Below, piece by piece: positions 1 to 11,012 of a stretch of DNA of 64,000 nt (the first letter of the stretch is position 1; each line of letters starts with the position of its first letter). This stretch comes from Marinobacterium arenosum (GTDB lineage Bacteria > Pseudomonadota > Gammaproteobacteria > Pseudomonadales > Balneatricaceae). Both the position numbers and the translations under genes were made by a program. The notes under the pieces were generated by a model. It was not told where the DNA came from and ran no database searches. It was given only the letters and a program-made list of their open reading frames with translations. The stretch covers positions 62,001 to 126,000 of the forward strand of contig NZ_JAILYN010000003.1 in assembly GCF_019795155.1 (NCBI RefSeq), in the 5' to 3' direction.

Positions 1-1143
1 ATAATCTTCCAGGTCGTCGACCAGCTCCGGGTAGAGCTCCAGCAGGATCGATACCAGCATCTCCTGGCCCTGCAGCGAGCAGTGCTGCTCGCTCCATTTG
101 AGCAGGTTGTCCCAGTTGCCGATGCCGTCTTCGGTATGGGTTTTCAGTTTGACCAGGTCCTGCAGCACCATCTGGTTGTTATCGGTCTGCCAGTCGTCCT
201 CGGTGACGGTTTCGGCGGTGTGGCGTTCGCAGCGCTCGAGCAGTTCGGCGAAGCGCTGGCGGATCATGCCGTTGATGTTGCCGAGCACCCGGATGCGGGC
301 CAGCGCCAGTTCGCGCATCTCGACCCACTGGTTGATCAGCAGAGGATGGTTGACCAGGAACGGTGCCATGCCGAGGCCGGTGGAATTGCCGATACCGAAG
401 TAGCGTTTGATCTCCGGCTTCATCGGCTGGAAGCTGTCTGGTGCGCGGTGTTTGGCGATATGCTCCGCCTGCAGCAAGCTGAAGTTGCGCAGCATCAGGC
501 AGACGAACATTTCTGCCGAGAACGGGCGCGCGAAGTCAGCGTGCTTGTCGCGAACCTTCTCCCAGTCCGCCATGCCCAGCTTGCCGCTACCGTACACCGC
601 CGTTGTGCGGTACAGATAGCCCACTTTGGCGATCTGCTCGACATCCGGCTGGCGGCCGTTGGCCAGTTGGTCGACCACGTAGTCGAAATTGCGGGCGCTA
701 CGGTTGGCGCGGGACAGCACGAACACCCGGGCGTCGACCCGGCCGGCTTCCTGTTTGGGAACGTTCTGGCGCAGCTTCTCCAGGTAGATATCGTCCACCT
801 TGTCTTCGACCAGCGCCATGGTCAGGTCCCACTTGGTCGCGATTACCCGGTCGTTGCGCTCTTCCGGCGCCAGGTAATCGGAGAACAGTACGAAACTGAA
901 CAGGCCGTGCGGTGCGTGGATCTCGTAGATCACGGTGCCGTAGCCGTCGTTGTCCAGTTCGAAGCGAGCCGGCTCGATCTGCCAGCGCTCTCGCATAATC
1001 TTGCGCACCAGGGTACGCATGAAACTCAGTCGGCTCTGATGCAACGCGCCCAGCCGTTCCAGGTCCATTACCTGGTTGGCGGGCCGCAGTGGCAGTGCAT
1101 TGTCGCCCCGCAGTGAGGCTTGAATGGCTGCTGGCGTGGTCAT
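1..1143 (-). CDS. Unrecognised protein, N-terminal 381 residues, cut by window start
   Basis: An open minus-strand frame runs from an ATG at 1143 to the left edge with no stop, so at least 381 residues are present and the C-terminus lies outside. The deduced N-terminus reads MTTPAAIQASLRG; later parts include FSFVLFSDYLAPEERNDRV and FGIGNSTGLGMAPFLVN, a soluble, mixed alpha/beta-looking protein with no signal peptide or membrane segment. I do not recognise a family. A palindrome resembling a FadR-type GntR operator lies about 310 bases upstream of the start. It faces away from the LysR-aldehyde dehydrogenase group but may belong to the same catabolic region. The reading frame is judged real from its uninterrupted length and protein-like composition; function is unknown. 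Confidence 0.8.
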   Translation of the reverse strand, partial: MTTPAAIQASLRGDNALPLRPANQVMDLERLGALHQSRLSFMRTLVRKIMRERWQIEPARFELDNDGYGTVIYEIHAPHGLFSFVLFSDYLAPEERNDRVIATKWDLTMALVEDKVDDIYLEKLRQNVPKQEAGRVDARVFVLSRANRSARNFDYVVDQLANGRQPDVEQIAKVGYLYRTTAVYGSGKLGMADWEKVRDKHADFARPFSAEMFVCLMLRNFSLLQAEHIAKHRAPDSFQPMKPEIKRYFGIGNSTGLGMAPFLVNHPLLINQWVEMRELALARIRVLGNINGMIRQRFAELLERCERHTAETVTEDDWQTDNNQMVLQDLVKLKTHTEDGIGNWDNLLKWSEQHCSLQGQEMLVSILLELYPELVDDLEDY

Positions 1144-1451
1144 TGTTGTTATCCTCGTTTTAGACACATCCGGAATTTCGAGATGCCGGCCTCATTCGCC
1201 GGCGGCAGCATAGATGTGTTGGAAACCTTCTCGCCCATCGGCCCCTGCCGGTTTTCCTTATCTTTAATTGTATGCAGGGAGGCGTATCTGCCGGGTTCCA
1301 TCGCAGATAGTTGACCGTGCGGCTCCTGCCATATGCGGAAACGGCACTCGGCCTTTCGGATTGCCGGCCTTGCCTGGCCGTCTCCACCCGGAAGACCGTT
1401 TCATATTGGGGGAATTGAGCGCTAACCGACAAATCAAAAGGTTATATCGTC

Positions 1452-1470
1452 TGATAAGTCGGACTTATCA
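1452..1470. promoter_or_regulatory. Palindrome resembling a FadR/GntR-family operator
   Basis: TGATAAGTCGGACTTATCA is a perfect 9-base inverted repeat around one central G. The core GTCGGAC has the GT-N3-AC form typical of FadR-subfamily GntR operators (FadR core TGGTCNGACCA). No GntR gene is in the window, so the regulator would be encoded outside. The nearest gene start it could control is the minus-strand gene beginning at 1143. The operator role is inferred from symmetry and the core motif only. Confidence 0.55.
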
Positions 1471-1575
1471 AACCTGCGGAAGATATTATTTTTTCTATGG
1501 TTTGGGTGGGATAACGCATGGGTTTCGGCTAAAGCTGCTTGGCCGGAGCCTCTTCTACAACAGAGCGTGCAGGCC

Positions 1576-1600
1576 CTTGTAGGAGCGGATTTATCCGCGA
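1576..1600. repeat. REP-like element (Pseudomonas-type)
   Basis: The sequence CTTGTAGGAGCGGATTTATC continuing CGCGA contains the hairpin GCGGAT-TT-ATCCGC and closely resembles the short extragenic palindromes beginning GTAGGAGCGG found in Pseudomonas genomes. It sits just downstream of the stop codon of the minus-strand LysR gene, a usual place for such elements. Only one copy of this form is visible in the window. Confidence 0.6.
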
Positions 1601-1615
1601 CCGACCGAGGGCGGG

Positions 1616-2515
1616 TTAATCTTCGGTGCTGCTGTTGTCGATAATGAAATTAATCAACGCCTCGGCGGCCGGGGTCAGCGATTTGTTGCTCAGCCGGACG
1701 ATACCGATATGGCGCACCACCGCCGGTTGGGTCAGCGGGATGAAGCGCAGTGTGGCGCTGTCCTGCGGGAAGGCGAACCAGGGCAGGGTGGTGATGCCGA
1801 TGCCCGCTTCCAGCATCGCGATCAGCGAGATCATGTTGGAGATATAGAACTGGGAGTCGGCCAGCAGCGGCTCCGCCTCGCTCTCTTCCAGCAGCCGCGA
1901 GGTGCCATTGGCGATCAGCCGGTACTGGCGCAGCTCCTTCCAGTGCAGTGCCTCTTTTTCCGCCAGCGGGTGGTCGTTGCGGCAGACCACGCCGATCTGG
2001 TCCTGCCAGATCGGGGTGAAGTTCTTGTCGCTGTGTTCCTGCGCCTGCCACAGGCTGGCGATGCCGAAGTCGACCTGCTGGTTTTCCACCATCCTTAATA
2101 CAGCATCGGAGTTATCGTCGTAGAAGCTGATATGCAGGTTCGGGCTGTCGGCGACGAACCGCGACAGCAGTTGCGGCAGTATCCGGCTGGCGATCGACGG
2201 TACCGAGGCCAGCCGTAGGTGGCCGGTCTTGTGCTCCGCCAGCAGGGTCATGTCCTGGGCGATGCGGTCGTGATGGGCGATCAGCTCCTTGGCCTGCGGC
2301 AGGAAATGGCGGCCGAACGGGGTCAGCTCGGTCTTGGCGGCCTTGGATTTGCGCTTCTCGAACAACGGCTCGCCCAACTTGTTTTCCAGATCACGGATCG
2401 ACAGCGAAATGGCCGGCTGGGTGCGGTGGGCTTTCTCGGCGGCGGCGTGGAAGCCCTTGAGCTCGGCGACCCAGACGAAGTGGCGTAGCTGAGTGATCTT
2501 CAGTTCCGGCAGCAT
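1616..2515 (-). CDS. LysR-family transcriptional regulator
   Basis: A 299-residue LysR-type regulator of normal length. The N-terminal winged helix-turn-helix (about residues 6-65) contains the typical AAEKAHRTQPAISLSIRDLE recognition region, followed by a linker helix and a substrate-binding domain (about 90-295). It is transcribed divergently from the aldehyde dehydrogenase gene, with 92 bases between starts holding a short dyad (2517-2531), the arrangement of a local activator with its target operon. The inducer is not evident; by context it would be the substrate or an intermediate of the dehydrogenase-dipeptidase-BCCT module. Family assignment is secure, target assignment is inferred from position. 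Confidence 0.93.
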   Translation of the reverse strand: MLPELKITQLRHFVWVAELKGFHAAAEKAHRTQPAISLSIRDLENKLGEPLFEKRKSKAAKTELTPFGRHFLPQAKELIAHHDRIAQDMTLLAEHKTGHLRLASVPSIASRILPQLLSRFVADSPNLHISFYDDNSDAVLRMVENQQVDFGIASLWQAQEHSDKNFTPIWQDQIGVVCRNDHPLAEKEALHWKELRQYRLIANGTSRLLEESEAEPLLADSQFYISNMISLIAMLEAGIGITTLPWFAFPQDSATLRFIPLTQPAVVRHIGIVRLSNKSLTPAAEALINFIIDNSSTED

Positions 2516-2516
2516 G

Positions 2517-2531
2517 ATAAGGAAACCTTAT
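2517..2531. promoter_or_regulatory. Candidate LysR-regulator binding site
   Basis: ATAAGG-AAA-CCTTAT is a perfect 6-base inverted repeat in the divergent promoter region between the LysR gene and the aldehyde dehydrogenase gene. It has the T-rich, interrupted-dyad look of LysR boxes and abuts the LysR start, as expected for autoregulation. The AT-rich run after it (2535-2565) probably contains promoter elements, but no clear -35/-10 pair could be fixed. Confidence 0.5.
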
Positions 2532-2607
2532 TGAGGAATATTATTAATTAATTTTTGTTATTAAAGCACGCGGCCTAAGATGCTTCCAACACTATCAGGA
2601 GGTGACT

Positions 2608-4053
2608 ATGTCTGATTCAGTTTTTCGTAACTACATCGCGGGTGAGTGGGTAGAAGGCAACAACGGCAGCGTGGCGAATATCAGCCCGGCCGATACCAGC
2701 GATCTGATCGGTTACTACGCCCAGGCCGACAAGGCGCAGACCGAAGCGGCGATCGCCGCGGCAGCCAAAGGCCAGATCGAATGGGCCAAGAGCGGCCTGG
2801 AACAGCGTTACGCGGTGCTGATGGCGATCGGTGACGAGCTGATCGCCCGTAAAGACGAGCTGGGCGCGATCCTGGCCCGCGAAGAGGGCAAGACCCTGGC
2901 GGAAGGCGTTGGCGAGACCTACCGTTCCGGCCAGTTCTTCCACTACTACGCGGCCGAGGTGCTGCGCCAGATGGGCGAGACCGCCGATTCCGTACGACCG
3001 GGTGTCGAGATCGAAACCCGCCGCGAGCCGGTCGGCGTGGTCGGCATCATCACCCCCTGGAACTTCCCGACCGCCACCGGCGCCTGGAAGATCGCCCCGG
3101 CACTGGCGTTCGGCAACGCCATCGTCTGGAAGCCGGCCAACCAGGTTCCGGCCAGCGCCTGGGCACTGACCGAGATCATCTCCCGCCAGGGGCTGCCGGC
3201 CGGCACCTTCAACCTGGTGATGGGGCCGGGTTCCCAGGTCGGCGACGTGCTGATCAACTCCCGCGACATCAACGCGCTGACTTTCACCGGCTCGCTGGAG
3301 ACCGGCCGCAAGGTGGCCGCTGCCACCGCCGTCAACCTGGTCAAGTGCCAGCTGGAGATGGGCAGCAAGAATGCGCTGGTGGTGCTGGATGACGCCGACC
3401 TGGACAACGCCGTCGAGTGCGCGGTCAACGGCGCCTTCGGCGGTACCGGCCAGAAGTGCACCGCGTCCTCCCGTCTGATCGTCACCGAAGGTATCCATGA
3501 CCGCTTTGTCGAGGCGGTGGTCGAGCGGATGAAGAAGCTGGTGATCGGTCACCCGCTGAAAGAGGGTGTGCACATCGGTGCGGTGGCGGACGCCCGCCAG
3601 ATGGAACAGAACCTGGCCTATCTGGAACTGGCCAAGGCTGAGGGCGGCAAGCTGGTCTGGGGCGGCGAGGTACTGAAGGAGGAGACCGAAGGTTACTACC
3701 TGCAGCCGGCGCTGTTCACCGAAACCACCAACGATATGCGCATCAACCGCGAAGAGGCGTTCGCGCCGATCGCCTGCGTGATCAAGGTGAAGGATTACGA
3801 CGAGGCACTGGCCACTCTGAACGATACCAACTTCGGCCTGACCGGCGGCATCTGCACCCAGTCGCTGAAGTACGCCAGCGACTTCAAGCGCAACGCCAAG
3901 ACCGGCTGCGTGATGGTCAACCTGCCGACCGCCGGCACCGACTACCACGTACCGTTCGGCGGCCGCAAGGATTCCAGCTTCGGACCGCGCGAACAGGGCA
4001 CTTACGCCAAGGAGTTCTACACCGTCGTAAAAACCACCTACATCCGCGCCTAA
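2608..4053 (+). CDS. Aldehyde dehydrogenase, 2-oxoglutarate-semialdehyde (2,5-dioxovalerate) type
   Basis: A 481-residue NAD(P)-dependent aldehyde dehydrogenase. Visible active-site features are PWNFP (oxyanion Asn152), the general base Glu250 in QLEMGSKN and catalytic Cys284 in GQKCTASS. The C-terminal VMVNLPTAGTDYHVPFGGRK segment resembles alpha-ketoglutaric-semialdehyde dehydrogenases of glucarate and hydroxyproline pathways, so it probably oxidises 2,5-dioxopentanoate to 2-oxoglutarate; this substrate is inferred from similarity, not certain. Start is the ATG six bases after a GTG extension, because AGGAGGT lies at optimal spacing. It is first in an apparent operon with the M19-like gene 15 bases downstream and the BCCT carrier, opposite a LysR gene. 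Confidence 0.88.
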   Translation: MSDSVFRNYIAGEWVEGNNGSVANISPADTSDLIGYYAQADKAQTEAAIAAAAKGQIEWAKSGLEQRYAVLMAIGDELIARKDELGAILAREEGKTLAEGVGETYRSGQFFHYYAAEVLRQMGETADSVRPGVEIETRREPVGVVGIITPWNFPTATGAWKIAPALAFGNAIVWKPANQVPASAWALTEIISRQGLPAGTFNLVMGPGSQVGDVLINSRDINALTFTGSLETGRKVAAATAVNLVKCQLEMGSKNALVVLDDADLDNAVECAVNGAFGGTGQKCTASSRLIVTEGIHDRFVEAVVERMKKLVIGHPLKEGVHIGAVADARQMEQNLAYLELAKAEGGKLVWGGEVLKEETEGYYLQPALFTETTNDMRINREEAFAPIACVIKVKDYDEALATLNDTNFGLTGGICTQSLKYASDFKRNAKTGCVMVNLPTAGTDYHVPFGGRKDSSFGPREQGTYAKEFYTVVKTTYIRA

Positions 4054-4068
4054 CACGGGGACCGGTCT

Positions 4069-5085
4069 ATGAACAAAGCGCTGCATAACGAGCTGATCGT
4101 CATCGACGGCCTGCAGTACTCCAATTGGAGTCGTGAGATCTTCGAGCAGTTGCGCGAAGGCGGTGTGACCATGGTGCACGCCACCATCGTCTACCACGAG
4201 CAGATCCGCGAAACCCTGCTGCGGATCGCCGAGTGGAACCGGCTGTTCGAACTGCACGGCGACCTGATCATGCCGGTCAAGAGCGCGGCGGATATCCGCC
4301 GCGCCAAGCAGCTCGGCAAGGTTGGCATCCTGTTCGGCGCGCAGAACTGCTCGCCGATCGAAGACGACATCGGCATGGTCGAGGTGATGCGCGAGCTGAA
4401 CCTGATGATCATGCAGTTGACCTACAACAACCAGAGCCTGCTGGCCTGCGGCTGCTACGAAGCCGAAGACAGCGGCGTGACCCGCTTCGGTCGCCAGGTG
4501 ATCCGCGAGATGAACCGGGTCGGCATGGTGGTCGATATGAGCCACAGCGGCGAACGCAGCACGCTGGAGGCGATCGAGCTGTCTGAGCGGCCGATCGTGA
4601 TCTCGCACGCCAACCCGGCCAGCTTCCACCCGGCCAAGCGCAACAAGTCCGATACCGTACTGAAGGCGCTGGGCCAGTCGGGCGGCCTGCTGGGCTTCAG
4701 CCTCTACCCGTTCCACCTGAAGAACGGTTCCGCCTGCACGCTGGATGAGTTTTGCGACATGGTGGCCAGCACCGCCGACCTGATGGGTATCGAGCGGATC
4801 GGCATCGGCACCGACCTGTGCCAGCAGCAGCCGCTGTCGGTGCTGGAGTGGATGCGCAATGGTCGCTGGTCGAAGGAGATGGATTACGGCGAAGGCTCCA
4901 AGGCGAACGCCGACTGGCCGGCACCGCTGAGCTGGTTCCGCGACAGCCGCGACTTCCCGAACCTCACCGCCGGCCTGCAGGCGCGCGGTTTCAGTGACGA
5001 CGAGGTAGCCCGAATCATGGGGCAGAACTGGCTCGAGTTCCTGGATGACGCGTTGCAGCCGCAGCCTGGCGCGGCCTTCCGCTAA
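4069..5085 (+). CDS. M19 (membrane/renal dipeptidase) family protein with altered metal site
   Basis: A 338-residue TIM-barrel amidohydrolase-fold protein of peptidase family M19. It resembles the subgroup including P. aeruginosa PA5396, which lies next to dimethylglycine demethylation genes. The second-half ligands are recognisable: His159 (VDMSHS), His180 (ISHANP), Arg191 and Asp249 (GIGTDL). The first-half ligands are not: the usual HxD of the N-terminal strand is replaced in VIDGLQYSN (13-17), and the bridging Glu position reads FGAQN (90-93). A one-metal enzyme or a different chemistry is therefore possible, and dipeptidase activity should not be assumed. It is 15 bases after the dehydrogenase gene and followed by a hairpin before the BCCT gene. 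Confidence 0.85.
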   Translation: MNKALHNELIVIDGLQYSNWSREIFEQLREGGVTMVHATIVYHEQIRETLLRIAEWNRLFELHGDLIMPVKSAADIRRAKQLGKVGILFGAQNCSPIEDDIGMVEVMRELNLMIMQLTYNNQSLLACGCYEAEDSGVTRFGRQVIREMNRVGMVVDMSHSGERSTLEAIELSERPIVISHANPASFHPAKRNKSDTVLKALGQSGGLLGFSLYPFHLKNGSACTLDEFCDMVASTADLMGIERIGIGTDLCQQQPLSVLEWMRNGRWSKEMDYGEGSKANADWPAPLSWFRDSRDFPNLTAGLQARGFSDDEVARIMGQNWLEFLDDALQPQPGAAFR

Positions 5086-5092
5086 CGGATTT

Positions 5093-5123
5093 CGGCTGCC
5101 GCTGCGTAGCGGCGGCCGATTTT
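5093..5123 (+). terminator. Intercistronic hairpin, possible partial terminator
   Basis: CGGCTGCCGCT-GCGT-AGCGGCGGCCG forms an 11-base stem with one wobble pair and a 4-base loop, followed by ATTTTA. It starts eight bases after the M19-like stop codon and lies 48 bases before the BCCT start, so it may attenuate read-through or set relative transcript levels within the operon. Confidence 0.6.
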
Positions 5124-5170
5124 ACTCCCTGATCTTCAAATAAATATAAGAGACCTGTCAGGAGACTAAA

Positions 5171-6745
5171 ATGAACGATACTTCTCAGGCCACGCTGTCT
5201 GCACGTGAGGCAGATATGGCAAAGAACCCGGTATTGGCGGGCGTCGACCTGCCGGTATTCCTGATCAGCGGCGGCGTGCTGGTGCTGTTCGCGGCATTTG
5301 CGCTCTACGATATCGACATGGTGTCCGGCTGGGTGAACAGCGCGTTCGCGGCGTCCACCAAGGCATTCGGCGCCTACTGGCAGGTACTGCTGCTGCTGAC
5401 TTTCGTGATCGGCCTGTTCATGGCGATCGGCCGTACCGGCGCGGTAGTGCTCGGCGGCATCAAGGTGCCGGAGATCTCCACCTTCAAGTGGATCTCGATC
5501 ATCATGTGCACCCTGCTCGCCGGCGGTGGCGTGTTCTGGGCCGCCGCCGAGCCGATGGCACACTTCACCTCGCCGCCGCCGCTTTTTTCAAGCATGGCCG
5601 GTGGTGAGACCGGTACCGCCCAGGCGGCCTACAACGCGCTGGCGCAGAGCTTCATGCATTGGGGTTTCCTGGCCTGGGCGATCCTCGGCAGCCTGACCGG
5701 CGTGGTATTCATGTACCTGCACTACGAGAAGGGCCTGCCGCTGAAACCGCGTACGCTGCTCTACCCGGTGTTCGGTGATCGGGTGATGAAAGGCGCCTTC
5801 GGTGCGCTGGTCGATGCCAGCTGCGTGCTGGCGGTGGTCGCAGGCACCGTCGGGCCGATCGGCTTCCTCGGCCTGCAGGTCAGCTTCGGCCTGGAAAAAC
5901 TGTTCGGCATCCCCAATACCTACGCCACCCAGGTGACCATCCTGGTGGGGCTGATCGTGCTCTATACCCTGTCTGCGGTCAGCGGCGTGACCCGAGGCAT
6001 CCAGCTGCTCAGCCGCGCCAACGTGATCCTGGCGGTGCTGCTGATGGCGTTCATCCTGCTGTTCGGCCCGACCGCGTTCATCATCGACAGCTACCTGCAC
6101 TCGTTCGGTATTTACCTGGATCAGTTCATCCCGATGGCGACCTTCCGTGCCAGCCCGGGCTGGCTGGACTGGTGGACGGTGTTCTTCTGGGGCTGGTTCC
6201 TGGGCTACGGCCCGCTGATGGCGATGTTCGTGGCGCGTATCTCCCGTGGCCGCACTATCCGTGAAATGGTACTGCTGATCTCGGTGGTGGCGCCGGTGAT
6301 CACCTGCTTCTGGTTCACCATCGTCGGTGGCAGCGGGCTGGCGTTTGAACTGGCCAACCCGGGCGTGATCTCCGAACCGTTCACCGGTTTCAATCTGCCG
6401 GCGGCACTGCTGGCGATCACCGAACAGCTGCCTATGGGCTTCCTGATCTCGCTGCTGTTCCTGGTGCTGACCACCATCTTCGTGGCCACCACCGGTGACT
6501 CCATGACCTACGCGGTATCGATGGTGATGACCGGCACCGATCATCCGCGCACCGAAGTGCGGGTGTTCTGGGGGATCATGATGGGGGTGATGGCGGCGCT
6601 GCTGATCTCGATCGGCTCCGGCGGTATCTCGGCGCTGCAGTCGTTCATCGTGGTCACTGCCGTGCCGGTGTCGCTGGTGCTGCTGCCGTCGCTGTGGACC
6701 GCACCCAAGATCGCCTCTCAGATGGCTGACGAACAGGGGCTCTGA
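5171..6745 (+). CDS. BCCT-family transporter (betaine/carnitine/choline type)
   Basis: A 524-residue inner-membrane carrier with about twelve hydrophobic segments. The BCCT signature is clear: the Trp-rich segment WWTVFFWGWFLGYGP followed by MFVARISRGRTIREM, and an upstream AAAEPMAHF. Family members take up quaternary ammonium or related zwitterionic solutes by Na+ or H+ symport; the exact ligand cannot be read from the sequence. The N-terminal tail is short and there is no long C-terminal osmosensory extension, which suits a nutrient-uptake rather than an osmostress carrier. AGGAG lies seven bases before the ATG. It follows the M19-like gene and is closed by a strong terminator. Confidence 0.93.
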   Translation: MNDTSQATLSAREADMAKNPVLAGVDLPVFLISGGVLVLFAAFALYDIDMVSGWVNSAFAASTKAFGAYWQVLLLLTFVIGLFMAIGRTGAVVLGGIKVPEISTFKWISIIMCTLLAGGGVFWAAAEPMAHFTSPPPLFSSMAGGETGTAQAAYNALAQSFMHWGFLAWAILGSLTGVVFMYLHYEKGLPLKPRTLLYPVFGDRVMKGAFGALVDASCVLAVVAGTVGPIGFLGLQVSFGLEKLFGIPNTYATQVTILVGLIVLYTLSAVSGVTRGIQLLSRANVILAVLLMAFILLFGPTAFIIDSYLHSFGIYLDQFIPMATFRASPGWLDWWTVFFWGWFLGYGPLMAMFVARISRGRTIREMVLLISVVAPVITCFWFTIVGGSGLAFELANPGVISEPFTGFNLPAALLAITEQLPMGFLISLLFLVLTTIFVATTGDSMTYAVSMVMTGTDHPRTEVRVFWGIMMGVMAALLISIGSGGISALQSFIVVTAVPVSLVLLPSLWTAPKIASQMADEQGL

Positions 6746-6830
6746 TAGTCCGATCGAAAGAGCTTCAGCCTGATAAACAGCGCTTCAGCCAATCGAAAGA
6801 GTTTCAACGCAAGCATTGCGCTCTCGTCCT

Positions 6831-6854
6831 GGGCGGCTTCGGCCGCCTTTTTTT
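6831..6854 (+). terminator. Rho-independent terminator after BCCT gene
   Basis: GGCGGC-TTCG-GCCGCC with a UUCG tetraloop is followed by seven T residues. It separates the BCCT operon from the RidA gene, so the latter probably has its own promoter in the 47 bases that follow or depends on read-through. Confidence 0.9.
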
Positions 6855-6901
6855 ATGAATTCCTTTTTATTCGAACCATTCAATTCACCGGAGACCGGCT
6901 A

Positions 6902-7282
6902 ATGAAACAAGCAGTCAAAACCGACCTGTTCGCCTCCAAGGCGCCGCTGGAGTGGGCGATCATCGCCAACGGCACCCTGTCCACCGCGCAGATCCCAATC
7001 GACGCAGAAGGCAAGGTGGTCGAGGGTGGCATCGAGGCCCAGGCCCGCCAGACCATGGAGAACTTCAAGCACACCATCGAGGCGGCCGGGCTGACCATGG
7101 ACGCGGTCACCCAGGTGCTGATCTACGTCACCGACCGCGACCAGCTGCCGGTATTCAACAAGGTCTACGCCGAATACTTCCAGCCGCCGTACCCGAACCG
7201 CGCAGCAATGATCGTCGCCGGCCTGGCCCGCGAAGAGATGCTCTGTGAGATCGTGGCGTATGCGGCGGTTGAAGAGCAGTAA
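6902..7282 (+). CDS. RidA/YjgF-family protein
   Basis: A 126-residue RidA-fold protein. The conserved Arg100 (PYPNRAAM) and Glu116 (MLCEIVAYA) used by imine/enamine deaminases are present, so hydrolysis of a reactive imine is plausible. The family forms cytosolic trimers and commonly protects PLP enzymes or completes catabolic steps that release imines. GGAG lies about nine bases before the ATG. It lies behind the terminator of the BCCT operon on the same strand, and cyclic imines are expected products of the hydroxyproline-type enzymes encoded at 9-11 kb, so a role in that pathway is attractive but unproven. Confidence 0.9.
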   Translation: MKQAVKTDLFASKAPLEWAIIANGTLSTAQIPIDAEGKVVEGGIEAQARQTMENFKHTIEAAGLTMDAVTQVLIYVTDRDQLPVFNKVYAEYFQPPYPNRAAMIVAGLAREEMLCEIVAYAAVEEQ

Positions 7283-7836
7283 TTGGTGGTTCAGCAGACA
7301 GTGCTGAGTTGACAGTTGCCAGCTGGGAAACCCGGCTGGCTCCGTAAAGACATTCTGCTTTCTTCGCCGTCTATGGCGGCGGGCTCCTATCCACTTATTC
7401 ATTTTTTGTATTTGTATTTATTGGTGGTATCCGTTGTGTCCAGCTAATCTGGACAACGAGCTTTTATCCTATATTGTTGGCGGATTATAACGCTCTTATT
7501 GATAGCGCCACTCTTCTTCCCTATTGCAACCATATCCTCCTTCCTCCTCTATAGCGCTTGGATTGCAGATTAGCTTAGCTGGGCTAGACTTGTTTTATTA
7601 ACTTGGATGATTATGGGGTCTGTTGAGTTATTCAGATACGGATCTTCTATGATTTTTCTGTATTAGGTTTTTTTTGTTGGGTTTTTGAGTGCTTTGCAAG
7701 GTTTTAAAATATTAGGGCTTTAGGTTGTTTTAAAGAGTATGGATATAGGCGTAAGTCATCATAATGATTGATTTTTTGATAAGCCGGATCTGTTGCGTAT
7801 AGTGTTCTGTAATCATGGCTTCTATATGAGGCGGAT
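7283..7836. other. AT-rich non-coding left part of islet
   Basis: No supported gene. Base composition shifts sharply from the GC-rich flanks to AT-rich DNA with long T runs. A dyad TGTCCAG-CTAAT-CTGGACA at 7437-7455 is the only structured element noticed. It could be a hairpin or the remnant of a mobile-element end, but no transposase remains. A minus-strand frame across 7704-8036 was rejected. Confidence 0.6.
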
Positions 7837-8097
7837 ATGAGCGAAGACTTACTGGTTGTTCTTAGACTTATATGGTTTATTGGTTTGTTCGGTATAGCAC
7901 TTCCGGCGACATCCTGTTGGAATATTGCGAAAAGGAACTGCAAAAAAGAGCATAAATGGATTATGTATACATTCATTTGGATGTTCATGTTTTCATACTT
8001 TAATAATGCTGGGGTTGTGGCTTGCAAAAAGGCCATTGTGTTTTTTGTGGTGTTTTTGATTTATGCTTGGTTAGGTATGATTATTGGGGCTGTTTGA
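7837..8097 (+). CDS. Small orphan membrane protein
   Basis: An 86-residue protein with probably two or three membrane segments (about residues 5-25, 41-56 and 65-84) separated by a short basic loop NIAKRNCKKEHK. GAGG lies six bases before the ATG. I recognise no family. It sits in AT-rich DNA with codon use unlike the GC-rich neighbours, pointing to horizontal acquisition. The start, the hydrophobic periodicity and the ribosome site support it as a real gene, but a chance frame in AT-rich DNA cannot be excluded. Confidence 0.5.
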   Translation: MSEDLLVVLRLIWFIGLFGIALPATSCWNIAKRNCKKEHKWIMYTFIWMFMFSYFNNAGVVACKKAIVFFVVFLIYAWLGMIIGAV

Positions 8098-8201
8098 ATT
8101 TTCATCGGTTTGTTTGGGTGGCCCTGTGAGCGTTTTCTAATGGCACTTGTGGATAATGTTGGTTCTTTTAATGTTGCCTATGAACTACGTTGAGGTTCAT
8201 C

Positions 8202-8678
8202 ATGAAAATAACTAAATGTTTGTTTTTATTCTGTGTCATCGGTATTGGCATCTGGATCGGACACAGTGGGAGATATCTGTTTGATCAATATAATAAAATA
8301 AAAAATGGTGCTGATATATTATTTGATGGGCTTTGCTTAAGTGTTTCCAATGATTGGGTCGTTATAAATGTGGAGGGTAAGGTGGGCGGAGAGGTTTATA
8401 CGCTTCAGAAGTCCATTGGTGATGGAGAATATAGGCATGCGATTTTCAGTTTTGTTGGTGGTGAGAGTGTTTTTTTAAGAGACAGGGTTATTGTTGATGA
8501 TGTTGTTTGGAATGATGAAAAATTAAATATTTATGAACTGAGTTTTCTGCCAAATGGTATTAGTGTAAGGTATTTTATGTTCTTTTCTAGCGGTCGCTAT
8601 TTATTGGCGAGTGATCATAAAGATTACATTAGGGATGTGACTAAAAGTTTGGTAGGCCCCAACAAGTGTGATAACTGA
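8202..8678 (+). CDS. Orphan exported or membrane-anchored hypothetical protein
   Basis: A 158-residue protein that begins MKITKCLFLFCVIGIGIWIG, an uncleaved signal or N-terminal anchor, followed by a periplasmic-looking domain rich in beta-type segments (for example RVIVDDVVW and GISVRYFMFFSS). The ATG is preferred over a TTG twelve bases upstream because TTGAGG lies at good spacing before it. No family is recognised. Codon use is strongly AT-biased, like the small membrane gene 104 bases upstream, so both likely arrived together. No terminator was found after it. Confidence 0.65.
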   Translation: MKITKCLFLFCVIGIGIWIGHSGRYLFDQYNKIKNGADILFDGLCLSVSNDWVVINVEGKVGGEVYTLQKSIGDGEYRHAIFSFVGGESVFLRDRVIVDDVVWNDEKLNIYELSFLPNGISVRYFMFFSSGRYLLASDHKDYIRDVTKSLVGPNKCDN

Positions 8679-9017
8679 GTAGTGGAGAAGAGGGCAGTGA
8701 TTTTAGTCGTCTTTTTGTAGTGTTGTTACCAATGTAATCCCTTTATATAAACAAACCGGTTCGAACCAGATCCCTTCGGCATACCTCACTCGAGCCAACG
8801 GGAGCGCGACATACCTGGCTAAGATTCACAGAGTCCCAGATCGTTTAGCCATTTTCTCTCACTCTCTTCCTGACATCCGTCCGCCACATTGGCCTAAAGA
8901 ATGACGCATCACGGGCTGTACTATTCGACACAATTGTATATTGTATGCAATAGTTCTGACGCCACGTTTCGTGGGCTATGACGAATAACAACAATCAAGC
9001 TTGATGAGGAAGATGCG
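8679..9017. other. 339-base promoter region of the dehydratase-reductase pair
   Basis: No gene seen. The left half is AT-rich like the islet; the right half returns to neighbour-like composition. A palindrome at 8940-8951, described separately, lies about 66 bases before the downstream start codon. Islet-type composition ends roughly at 8750. Confidence 0.55.
8940..8951. promoter_or_regulatory. Palindrome resembling a GntR-type operator
   Basis: ATTGTATGCAAT is a near-perfect dyad that resembles the TTGTATACAA operators of some FadR-subfamily GntR regulators, which often control proline-racemase-superfamily clusters. It overlaps the likely promoter of the gene starting at 9018. No cognate regulator is encoded nearby, so the assignment rests on motif resemblance alone. 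Confidence 0.35.
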
Positions 9018-10058
9018 ATGCAGGCGAGCAAGGTGATCCATGTGGTCAGTTGTCATGCGGAAGGCGAGGTCGGCGATGTGATCGTCGGTGGCGTGGCGCC
9101 ACCGCCGGGGGAGACGGTTTGGCAGCAGTCGCGCTGGATTGCCGAGGATCAGACGCTGCGTAATTTCGTGCTGAACGAGCCGCGTGGCGGGGTGTTCCGC
9201 CATGTGAACCTGTTGGTGCCGGCCAAGGATCCGCGTGCCCAGATGGGCTGGATCATCATGGAGCCGGAGGATACCCCGCCGATGTCCGGTTCCAACAGCA
9301 TCTGTGTCTCCACGGTGTTGCTGGAGACCGGCATCATCCCGATGCAGGAGCCGGAGACCCGCATGACGCTGGAGCCGCCGGCCGGTCTGATCGACGTGGT
9401 GGCGCAGTGCGAGAACGGCAAGGTGAAACAGGTGACAGTACGCAACGTGCCCTCGTTCGTCGACCGGATGGACGCGGTGATCGAGGTGGAGGGGCTGGGT
9501 ACGCTGACTGTCGATACCGCCTATGGCGGCGACAGCTTCGTGATCGTCGATGCGCATAAGCTGGGTTTCGCGATCACTCCGGACGAGGCTCGCGAGATCG
9601 CCGAGACCGGTATCCGCATCACCAACGCCGCCAACGAGCAGCTCGGTTTCCACCACCCGGCCAACCCCGAGTGGCGCCATATCTCGTTCTGCCAGATCGC
9701 CGCGCCGCTGGTACAGGAGCAGGGCAGCTGGCTGGGCCGCAACGCGGTGGCGATCCAGCCCGGTAAATTGGACCGTTCGCCGACCGGCACCGGCTGCTCG
9801 GCGCGGATGGCACTGTTACACGCCAAGGGGCTGCTGAAGGCGGGTGACCGTTTCATCGGCGAGTCGGTGATCGGTTCGCGCTTCCACTGCAGCATCGACG
9901 CCACCACCAAGGTGGGCGACCGTGATGCGATCTATCCGCTGATCTCCGGACGCGCCTGGATCACCGGCACCCACCAGCATATGCTGGACCCGACCGACCC
10001 CTGGCCGGAAGGCTACAAGGTGGCCGATACCTGGCCGATGCCGAGAAACCAGAAGTAA
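9018..10058 (+). CDS. Proline racemase superfamily, probable trans-3-hydroxy-L-proline dehydratase
   Basis: A 346-residue cytosolic enzyme of the proline racemase/hydroxyproline epimerase superfamily. The first catalytic position, usually Cys in MCGH, is Ser90 in MSGSNSICV. The second, usually Cys in DRSPCGTGTSA, is Thr255 in [11 protein letters not shown], with a cysteine four residues later (Cys259). Loss of the Cys/Cys pair argues against racemase and for the dehydratase branch, which turns trans-3-hydroxyproline into delta-1-pyrroline-2-carboxylate. The next gene encodes the matching reductase type, nine bases downstream. TGAGGA precedes the ATG at good spacing. Exact substrate remains an inference. 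Confidence 0.82.
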
Positions 10059-10067
10059 GGAAACGAG

Positions 10068-11012
10068 ATGCAGTTTATATCCGCCGACGAGGTGCGCCTT
10101 TACCTCGATTGGGACAGTGTGATCGAGGCGCTCGAGCAGATGTTCCGCGAGGGCTGCGAAGCGCCGGTGCGTCACCACCACACCATGCAGATTCCCGGCC
10201 AGGCCGACGCCACCATGCTGCTGATGCCGGCCTGGACGCCGGGCAAGTACGCCGGCCTGAAACTGGTCAATGTCTACCCGGACAACGCCAGCAAGCAGTT
10301 GCCGTCGATCATGGGCGGCTACCTGCTGATGGACGGCGACAGCGGCGCGCCGCTGGCCTACCTGGAGGCGGGCGAATTGACCGCCCGCCGCACCGCCGGC
10401 GCCTCGGCATTGGCGGCCAAGTACCTGGCCCGTGAAGATGCCAGCAAGCTGCTGATCGTCGGCAGTGGCCGGATCGCGATGAATATCGGCTTCGCCCATG
10501 CGGCGGTACGGCCGATCCGTCAGATCCGGGTCTGGGCACGCAGCCTGGAGAAAGCCGAGGCGGTGGCCGAGCATTATCGCAGCCATGGCTTCGAGGCCGA
10601 GCCGGTCGAACAGCTGGAGCAGGGTGTGCGCTGGGCGGATATCGTCAGCTGCGGCACCATGTCCAGCGAACCGCTGGTGTTGGGCGACTGGGTGCAGCCG
10701 GGCACTCATATCGATCTGGTCGGCGCCTTCAAGCCGACCATGCGCGAAACCGACGATGCGCTGGTCAGCAAGGCGGCGGTCTATGCCGATACCCGCGACG
10801 GGGTGCTGGCGGAGGCGGGCGACCTGTTGATCCCGATCGCCAACGGCAACTTCAAGCCGGAGCAGATCGTCGCCGATCTGCAGCAGCTGGCGCGCGGCGA
10901 AGGGGCGGGGCGAAGCTCCACCGAGCAGGTCACCCTGTTCAAGTCGGTCGGCGCCTCGCTGGAGGATCTGGCGGCGGCGATCCGCTGCTATGAGAACGCC
11001 CGTAACGGTTGA
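10068..11012 (+). CDS. Ornithine cyclodeaminase/mu-crystallin family, probable delta-1-pyrroline-2-carboxylate reductase
   Basis: A 314-residue protein of the OCD/mu-crystallin family with an NAD(P)-binding Rossmann centre (LLIVGSGRIAMNIG, about residues 127-140), Lys69 in AGLKLVN and Arg108-Arg109 in TARRTAGAS. Next to a 3-hydroxyproline-dehydratase-type gene, the most economical role is reduction of delta-1-pyrroline-2-carboxylate to L-proline rather than true ornithine cyclisation. AAGGA lies seven bases before the ATG, and the nine-base spacing indicates co-transcription with the dehydratase gene. Closed by a REPIN-like inverted pair. Confidence 0.85.
   Translation: MQFISADEVRLYLDWDSVIEALEQMFREGCEAPVRHHHTMQIPGQADATMLLMPAWTPGKYAGLKLVNVYPDNASKQLPSIMGGYLLMDGDSGAPLAYLEAGELTARRTAGASALAAKYLAREDASKLLIVGSGRIAMNIGFAHAAVRPIRQIRVWARSLEKAEAVAEHYRSHGFEAEPVEQLEQGVRWADIVSCGTMSSEPLVLGDWVQPGTHIDLVGAFKPTMRETDDALVSKAAVYADTRDGVLAEAGDLLIPIANGNFKPEQIVADLQQLARGEGAGRSSTEQVTLFKSVGASLEDLAAAIRCYENARNG

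Follow-up and report, generated by a model that had tools for sequence, protein, structure and literature searches.

Genes at the Locus and Separation Into Two Units

The first 11,012 positions of a 64,000-nucleotide window from Marinobacterium arenosum (contig C39, NZ_JAILYN010000003.1, positions 62001-126000; genome size 4.8 Mb) carry genes for a LysR-family regulator, an aldehyde dehydrogenase (ALDH), an M19-like amidohydrolase, a BCCT carrier, and a RidA-family protein, followed after a gap by a trans-3-hydroxy-L-proline dehydratase and a pyrroline-2-carboxylate reductase (Table 1). The left edge of the window cuts through the gene of a large protein, here termed BIG577, and the genes of a DUF3726 protein and a TauE/SafE permease follow outside the window. 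All genes named in a preliminary description of this DNA were recovered as open frames matching their families, and the large protein that it had left unrecognised is a coding sequence of 577 amino acids without a Pfam or NCBIfam match.

The preliminary description had combined all of these genes into one locus for hydroxyproline betaine or another N-modified imino acid. We used the M19-like protein as bait and compared the best 80 of the 209 loci found (58 of them spanning at least 20.9 kb, the shortest 8.9 kb). Because neither the dehydratase (0/80) nor the reductase (0/80) occurs in these M19-anchored loci, and because the G+C content breaks between the two groups of genes, the stretch is to be regarded as two unrelated units. 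Across the full set of 120 larger loci, the dehydratase query gave one match (45%, L203) and the reductase query none. The preliminary description had itself named a lack of co-occurrence of the two sub-clusters as grounds for dropping its reading, and this lack is what the DNA of the loci shows. The G+C content is 61.5% on the left side and 65.1% on the right side, and 39.8% in the gap of about 1.7 kb between them (7283-8990). This AT-rich gap, possibly acquired, contains one open reading frame of 162 amino acids (8190-8678) without a family match.

A single locus is thus hardly credible: the units adjoin in this window but never in the DNA of the 80 M19-anchored loci, the AT-rich gap parts them, and the right pair passes two curated models of its own. 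The right unit (9018-11012) is an ordinary, separate trans-3-hydroxy-L-proline pathway without any difference from the known pair, in which the dehydratase and then the reductase lead to L-proline and are self-sufficient. The D-hydroxyproline dehydrogenase and the deaminase formerly listed as missing are not needed for this route.

Table 1. Features of the two units and their flank, in window positions unless marked C39 (contig positions)
Feature	Position	Strand	Evidence and remarks
TauE/SafE permease	C39:59569-60294, outside window	-	After DUF3726 gene
DUF3726 gene	C39:60673-61437, outside window	-	PF12525, 82.8 bits; after BIG577
BIG577, 577-aa protein	1-1167 (N-terminal 389 aa); whole gene C39:61434-63167	-	Coding sequence; rest left of window
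LysR-family regulator	1616-2515	-	PF00126 and PF03466; divergent from ALDH gene; conserved position
Aldehyde dehydrogenase (ALDH)	2602-4053	+	Family match; nearest 2-oxoglutarate-semialdehyde dehydrogenases, below cut-off
M19-like amidohydrolase, 2i5g type	4069-5085	+	PF01244; PDB 2i5g, E 5e-73
BCCT carrier	5171-6745	+	PF02028, 504 bits
RidA-family protein	6902-7282	+	PF01042; last gene of left unit
trans-3-Hydroxy-L-proline dehydratase	9018-10058	+	NF047722, 650 bits (cut-off 550)
Pyrroline-2-carboxylate reductase (pyrroline/piperideine-2-carboxylate model)	10068-11012	+	NF004793, 432 bits (cut-off 322)

Conservation and Spread of the Left Unit

The M19-anchored loci originate from Oceanospirillales, Alteromonadales, Aeromonadales, Halomonas, and Pseudomonas, the two nearest M19 relatives being those of Marinobacterium species. 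The gene order DUF3726 - BIG577 - LysR / ALDH - M19-like - BCCT - RidA recurs in most of them; in Halomonas, BIG577 and DUF3726 are placed after the BCCT gene. ALDH was found in all 80 loci (at least 50% identity), LysR in 79 (at least 45% identity), BIG577 in 78 (exceptions L043 and L055), BCCT in 75 (at least 50% identity; 78 when any homologue is counted), and RidA in 73. Among the 40 BIG577-anchored loci, 36 have the M19-like gene. As a conserved locus the left unit is genuine, and BIG577 belongs to its core.

A BIG577 profile built from 28 rows (A1) matched in 29 of 398 Pseudomonadota genomes and, in the class that includes genome G183, in 53 of 385. PF12525 matched in 27 of the 398 genomes, and none of its 29 places is more than 100 bp away from a BIG577 match. 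Five genomes with a match are only 1.2-1.6 Mb in size, three of these being single contigs, and are SAR11-like in size only; relatives of the left unit are also present in Halomonas, Rhodobacterales, and rhizobia. Plasmid records gave 168 BIG577 matches, in Sinorhizobium, Phaeobacter, Aminobacter, Ruegeria, Vibrio, and others including one haloarchaeon, and phage records gave none.

On a conjugative plasmid of Tritonibacter scottomollicae (L336), LysR, ALDH, M19, BCCT, BIG577, DUF3726, and Ldh genes stand between IS5 and IS110 elements. This seven-gene set suggests a minimal unit, and since it is flanked by insertion sequences on a conjugative plasmid, the unit may spread between bacteria.

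More distant homologues were also noted. In the haloarchaeal plasmid pNVE500 of Natrinema versiforme (L318), a BIG577 homologue (29%) lies between ALDH and BCCT genes. A distant homologue (28%) on pSymB of S. meliloti 1021 (397144-398805, L316), which possibly serves another substrate, lies together with a binding-protein-dependent ABC transporter and an M19-like gene. Matching plasmid records from Sinorhizobium number 64.

Proteins of the Left Unit

BIG577 has a sole Pfam row at chance level (E 0.19) and no NCBIfam match, either with the whole protein (E 1e-10) or with the part inside the window (E 0.001). Across 111 sequences with identities as low as 29%, 35 of its 577 residues are invariant, ten of them Arg. 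The AlphaFold model (pLDDT 82, pTM 0.86) was searched as a whole against the PDB and a viral structure library and gave no usable match with Foldseek (best E 0.69), VIA-align (best Z 4.6 over 102 residues), or in the viral library (best E 0.21), a null result that does not prove a new fold.

The DUF3726 protein passes PF12525 (82.8 bits, cut-off 22.1) and stays below the cut-off of PF02615, the Ldh_2 family (35.1 bits, cut-off 38.8), which it does not match over its full length. Its predicted model (pLDDT 85) has the fold of the LDH2 family (e.g., 1wtj and 2x06), the top 14 entries reaching Z 17.4-19.5 over 214-224 residues, with the maximum of 19.5 over 215 residues. Compared to that family, about 97 residues are absent from the middle, a part that we take to be the NAD domain. 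Literature searches on DUF3726 found no papers.

The closest solved relative of the M19-like protein is PDB 2i5g (E 5e-73), which we take to be the amidohydrolase PA5396 of Pseudomonas aeruginosa. M19 membrane dipeptidases presumably bind a dinuclear metal centre through an HxD pair, a bridging Glu, and two His. In our alignment, the HxD position is occupied by L15 in 100/100 sequences and by Y17 in 97/100, with no Asp in the remaining three, and the bridging Glu is replaced by Q92 in 100/100; H159, H180, and one Asp are kept. Because three expected metal ligands are absent in all 100 aligned sequences, the protein is judged not to be a standard dipeptidase. In the alignment, 2i5g has Gln at the Q92 position and the same two His, and its gene neighbourhood presumably differs from that of the M19-like gene. 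No papers were found in literature searches on PA5396, and a search on the BCCT/dipeptidase/ALDH/RidA gene set returned nothing relevant.

The BCCT carrier has an altered aromatic motif, WGWFLGYGPL, in transmembrane helix 8 (TM8). This motif or the close FAWFIGYGPL was present in 71/71 BCCT orthologues recovered by gene calling. Five other BCCTs of the same genome have WW..W (two further ones were outside this comparison), and the carrier of the locus has Phe and Tyr where these five have Trp. It is without the Trp set that, as in BetP, is expected in the TM8 box of trimethylammonium carriers.

The ALDH had been described as a 2-oxoglutarate-semialdehyde type. The corresponding model is indeed the nearest one, but 489 bits against a cut-off of 770 do not establish the specific assignment.

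Transporters, N-Demethylase Operons, and C1 Genes Beside the Locus

BCCT carriers are found in most gammaproteobacterial loci. A glycine-betaine-type ABC system adjoins the locus in a SAR11-sized genome (L201), where the OpuAC substrate-binding domain (PF04069) and proV (TIGR01186) passed, as well as in Aminobacter (L319), Shinella (L335), and, by likeness, L202. The distant copies L169 and L316 have a different ABC system that is polyamine-like by eye.

A soxBDAG-type operon precedes the unit on plasmids of Ruegeria sp. TM1040, Phaeobacter gallaeciensis, and Aliiroseovarius crassostreae, in the order operon - AraC-type gene - LysR / ALDH - M19 - BIG577 - DUF3726 - Ldh. N-Methylglutamate dehydrogenase (Mgd) presumably resembles sarcosine oxidase, and PF01645 is taken to mark N-methylglutamate synthase and not Mgd; genes are called synthase-like here on our reading of PF01645 matches. 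In a tree of the alpha subunits, the three Rhodobacterales and G115 group together (100/100) inside a ten-row clade (100/100) that also holds the alphas of G183, G226, G099, and G313, located 4-11 kb from synthase-like genes. Because of this shared clade, we assign the operons beside the locus in the three Rhodobacterales and G115, on subunit sequence, to the Mgd type. The locus-linked alphas of two SAR11-sized genomes (G580 and G663) group (100/100) with the G423 alpha, which lies 2-3 kb from a synthase-like gene. A second alpha tree leaves out the long-branch rows G319 and G586_358.

The soxBDAG-type operon beside L077 and L080, which is below all four sarcosine-oxidase cut-offs (L077), resembled Mgd but was rejected as such, as it falls into a third subfamily in the trees. 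This subfamily (L077 14021-19081), neither sarcosine oxidase nor Mgd, was seen beside the locus in an Oceanospirillaceae metagenome-assembled genome and an Osedax symbiont. Its gene is intact in four of the five gammaproteobacterial genomes with Ldh_2 at the locus (G744, G745, L077, and L080; G746 has only sub-cut-off fragments), but also in 10 of 39 RidA-type genomes, and is therefore weak evidence. The operon of L203 is long-branched and near the sarcosine-oxidase cut-offs.

With regard to C1 genes, formyl-tetrahydrofolate deformylase lies beside L061, L077, and, by likeness, L080. FdhD together with an FdhF/YdeP-family oxidoreductase accompanies 9 of the 80 M19-anchored loci. Directly after the locus in L201 (12315-16357), a dimethylsulfoniopropionate (DMSP) demethylase gene is followed by three genes that were judged by eye to be MFS-, RidA-, and butyrobetaine-hydroxylase-like.

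About 30 kb to the left of the locus in M. arenosum (L010 1473-9930, corresponding to C39:25473-33930), a carnitine-use-like set comprises BKACE-like and carnitine-dehydrogenase-like genes, a choline-type ABC system, and a BCCT; the carnitine-dehydrogenase-like gene scores under its model cut-off. Beyond this set follow genes that, by eye, resemble the arginine succinyltransferase pathway.

Distribution of RidA and Ldh_2

Within 9 kb of BIG577, 118 loci were scored: 73 have RidA only, 15 Ldh_2 only, 2 both, and 28 neither. Some RidA genes lie beyond this distance, BIG577 being displaced (L022, L042, and L048). Five of the 80 M19-anchored gammaproteobacterial loci contain Ldh_2 (L051, L061, L063, L077, and L080). 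In four of them the locus DNA contains no RidA; L063 carries one at a distance of 8 kb from M19. The remaining loci lacking RidA (L037, L065, and L081) end soon after the M19 or BCCT gene.

Among the 14 candidates scored in each of 44 gammaproteobacterial genomes carrying the locus, no alpha was recognisably of the Mgd type. These genomes contain 36 alphas over the cut-off; the 30 compared are all of the sarcosine oxidase type, and the other six, left out of the comparison, score 1440-1465 bits. Sub-cut-off alphas mostly belong to another subfamily, one (G754) being nearest to sarcosine oxidase. We infer a shared methylimino acid substrate for RidA and Ldh_2, which the former would hydrolyse and the latter reduce. 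As RidA stands in the place of Ldh_2 and no Mgd-type enzyme was seen in the 44 genomes, the data suggest that in most Gammaproteobacteria the imine is hydrolysed rather than reduced.

Discussion

The left unit is probably the gammaproteobacterial form of a widespread locus for the import and degradation of an N-methylated betaine, with homarine (N-methylpicolinate) as the most likely substrate. Breakdown to N-methylglutamate is proposed because an Mgd-type operon precedes the unit in Ruegeria, Phaeobacter, and Aliiroseovarius. From the preliminary description, an uncharacterised catabolic locus for an osmolyte is retained, for the left unit only and probably for an N-methylated osmolyte, and the link to hydroxyproline is given up.

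A homarine catabolism operon, homABCDER, was reportedly published in 2026 and is said to occur in Rhodobacterales, SAR11, SAR116, and soil bacteria. Its name implies five enzyme genes and one regulator, a number that L314, L315, L320, and L336 would fit (ALDH, M19, BIG577, DUF3726, and Ldh plus LysR; compared by count only). The involvement of Mgd, and the occurrence in Rhodobacterales and in alphaproteobacterial genomes of very small size, may be further points in common. The M. arenosum copy would differ from homABCDER in having RidA instead of Ldh_2, a BCCT of its own, and a genome without Mgd. In R. pomeroyi, mgdABCD is reported to adjoin tmaR, an AraC gene, and Mgd to participate in the breakdown of homarine (PMC13390433). 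Homarine is described as a diatom metabolite taken up by Ruegeria pomeroyi within hours (PMC12817926).

In the proposed pathway, the BCCT would import the betaine under the control of LysR, and BIG577 with its DUF3726 partner would cleave the pyridinium ring in such a way that its carbon 6 is left on the nitrogen as a formyl group. The ALDH would oxidise the freed C5 aldehyde (a C5 N-methylamino semialdehyde), and the M19-like amidohydrolase would remove the formyl group as formate. Two endings are envisaged. In many Alphaproteobacteria and a few Gammaproteobacteria, Ldh_2 would reduce 2-(methylimino)glutarate to N-methylglutamate, from which Mgd would form glutamate and methylene-tetrahydrofolate. 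In M. arenosum and most Gammaproteobacteria seen, RidA would help to hydrolyse 2-(methylimino)glutarate to 2-oxoglutarate and methylamine. The full proposal, in which BIG577 and an LDH2-derived partner without its middle part form a new-fold ring-cleaving enzyme for a pyridinium betaine and Gammaproteobacteria finish through RidA with methylamine instead of through Ldh_2 and Mgd as in Alphaproteobacteria, is offered tentatively, as a possibility below even chances.

Several points weigh against homarine degradation by this unit. Every step of the pathway is a proposal, and for BIG577 and the M19-like protein the assigned chemistry is a guess. The mapping to the hom operon is tentative, drawn from the reported range of the operon and the count of five enzymes and one LysR. 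The ALDH (at least 50% identity) is present in only 16 of the 40 BIG577-anchored loci (20 when any homologue is counted) and absent from more than half. The altered TM8 motif is not universal, as the BCCTs of two Ldh_2-type loci (L063 and L212) keep WW..F. Terminator-like hairpins precede the BCCT (5092-5119) and RidA (6831-6848) genes, although such hairpins are no more frequent than in shuffles (9 versus 9.4, with 8 versus 4.7 promoter-like sites). The FdhF-like gene is of the YdeP type and, with 246 bits, stays well short of the formate-dehydrogenase cut-off of 666, so that formate is weakly supported. The alpha of G319, encoded 14 kb from a synthase-like gene, has a long branch and did not fall into the Mgd clade. 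M. arenosum has one sarcosine oxidase and no Mgd, so that the connection to N-methylglutamate is confined to Alphaproteobacteria. The nearest specific model for the Ldh_2 enzymes is that of sulfolactate dehydrogenase (178-190 of 500 bits), and none is passed. The exclusivity of RidA and Ldh_2 is largely the split between Gamma- and Alphaproteobacteria; within the former it concerns five loci from about four lineages, and 28 loci have neither gene and L201 and L202 both (5-7 kb away). Finally, some copies adjoin genes for DMSP demethylase (DmdA) or TauE, which would be in keeping with a sulfonium or sulfonate substrate as well.

Among the alternatives, a different N-methylated betaine or an N-methylamino acid as substrate, likewise giving N-methylglutamate or a comparable amine (e.g., trigonelline, proline betaine, or an N-methylated lysine derivative), is unlikely yet survives best. 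The evidence on transport and N-methyl groups fits it equally, other soxBDAG-type or DMGDH-like enzymes adjoin some copies, and soil and rhizobial relatives exist in habitats where trigonelline and stachydrine are abundant. Homarine is preferred, as the occurrence of the locus in genomes of 1.2-1.6 Mb suits a common marine metabolite, and the characterised routes for trigonelline (tgn) and stachydrine (stc) use other enzymes.

A role in the use of a sulfonium or sulfonate osmolyte such as DMSP, with TauE exporting sulfite, is considered very improbable. A TauE-type permease does stand beside DUF3726 in many gammaproteobacterial loci (48 in one cluster), DmdA is above its cut-off beside L201 and has a 70% relative beside L202, and Ldh_2 is nearest to sulfolactate dehydrogenase, though far below the cut-off. 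TauE is, however, only about 42-56% identical where the core of the same loci is mostly 70-95% identical, it is not listed in six plasmid loci (for which the PLSDB gene tables are incomplete), and the Mgd-type neighbours are N-demethylases. That Mgd-type operons and betaine carriers are mere neighbours in osmolyte islands and the core does something else, such as detoxification, would agree with the copies in which M19, BIG577, and DUF3726 stand alone (L199 and L200), but the Tritonibacter copy between insertion sequences still includes BCCT and Ldh, and we give this explanation next to no weight.

The locus links BIG577, DUF3726, and the 2i5g-type M19 protein, all three without a known function, to a single pathway, and the BCCT with its distinct aromatic motif becomes a candidate carrier. 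RidA would gain a dedicated metabolic step instead of a general housekeeping role. The two endings predict that one group of marine bacteria would release methylamine and the other would make N-methylglutamate.

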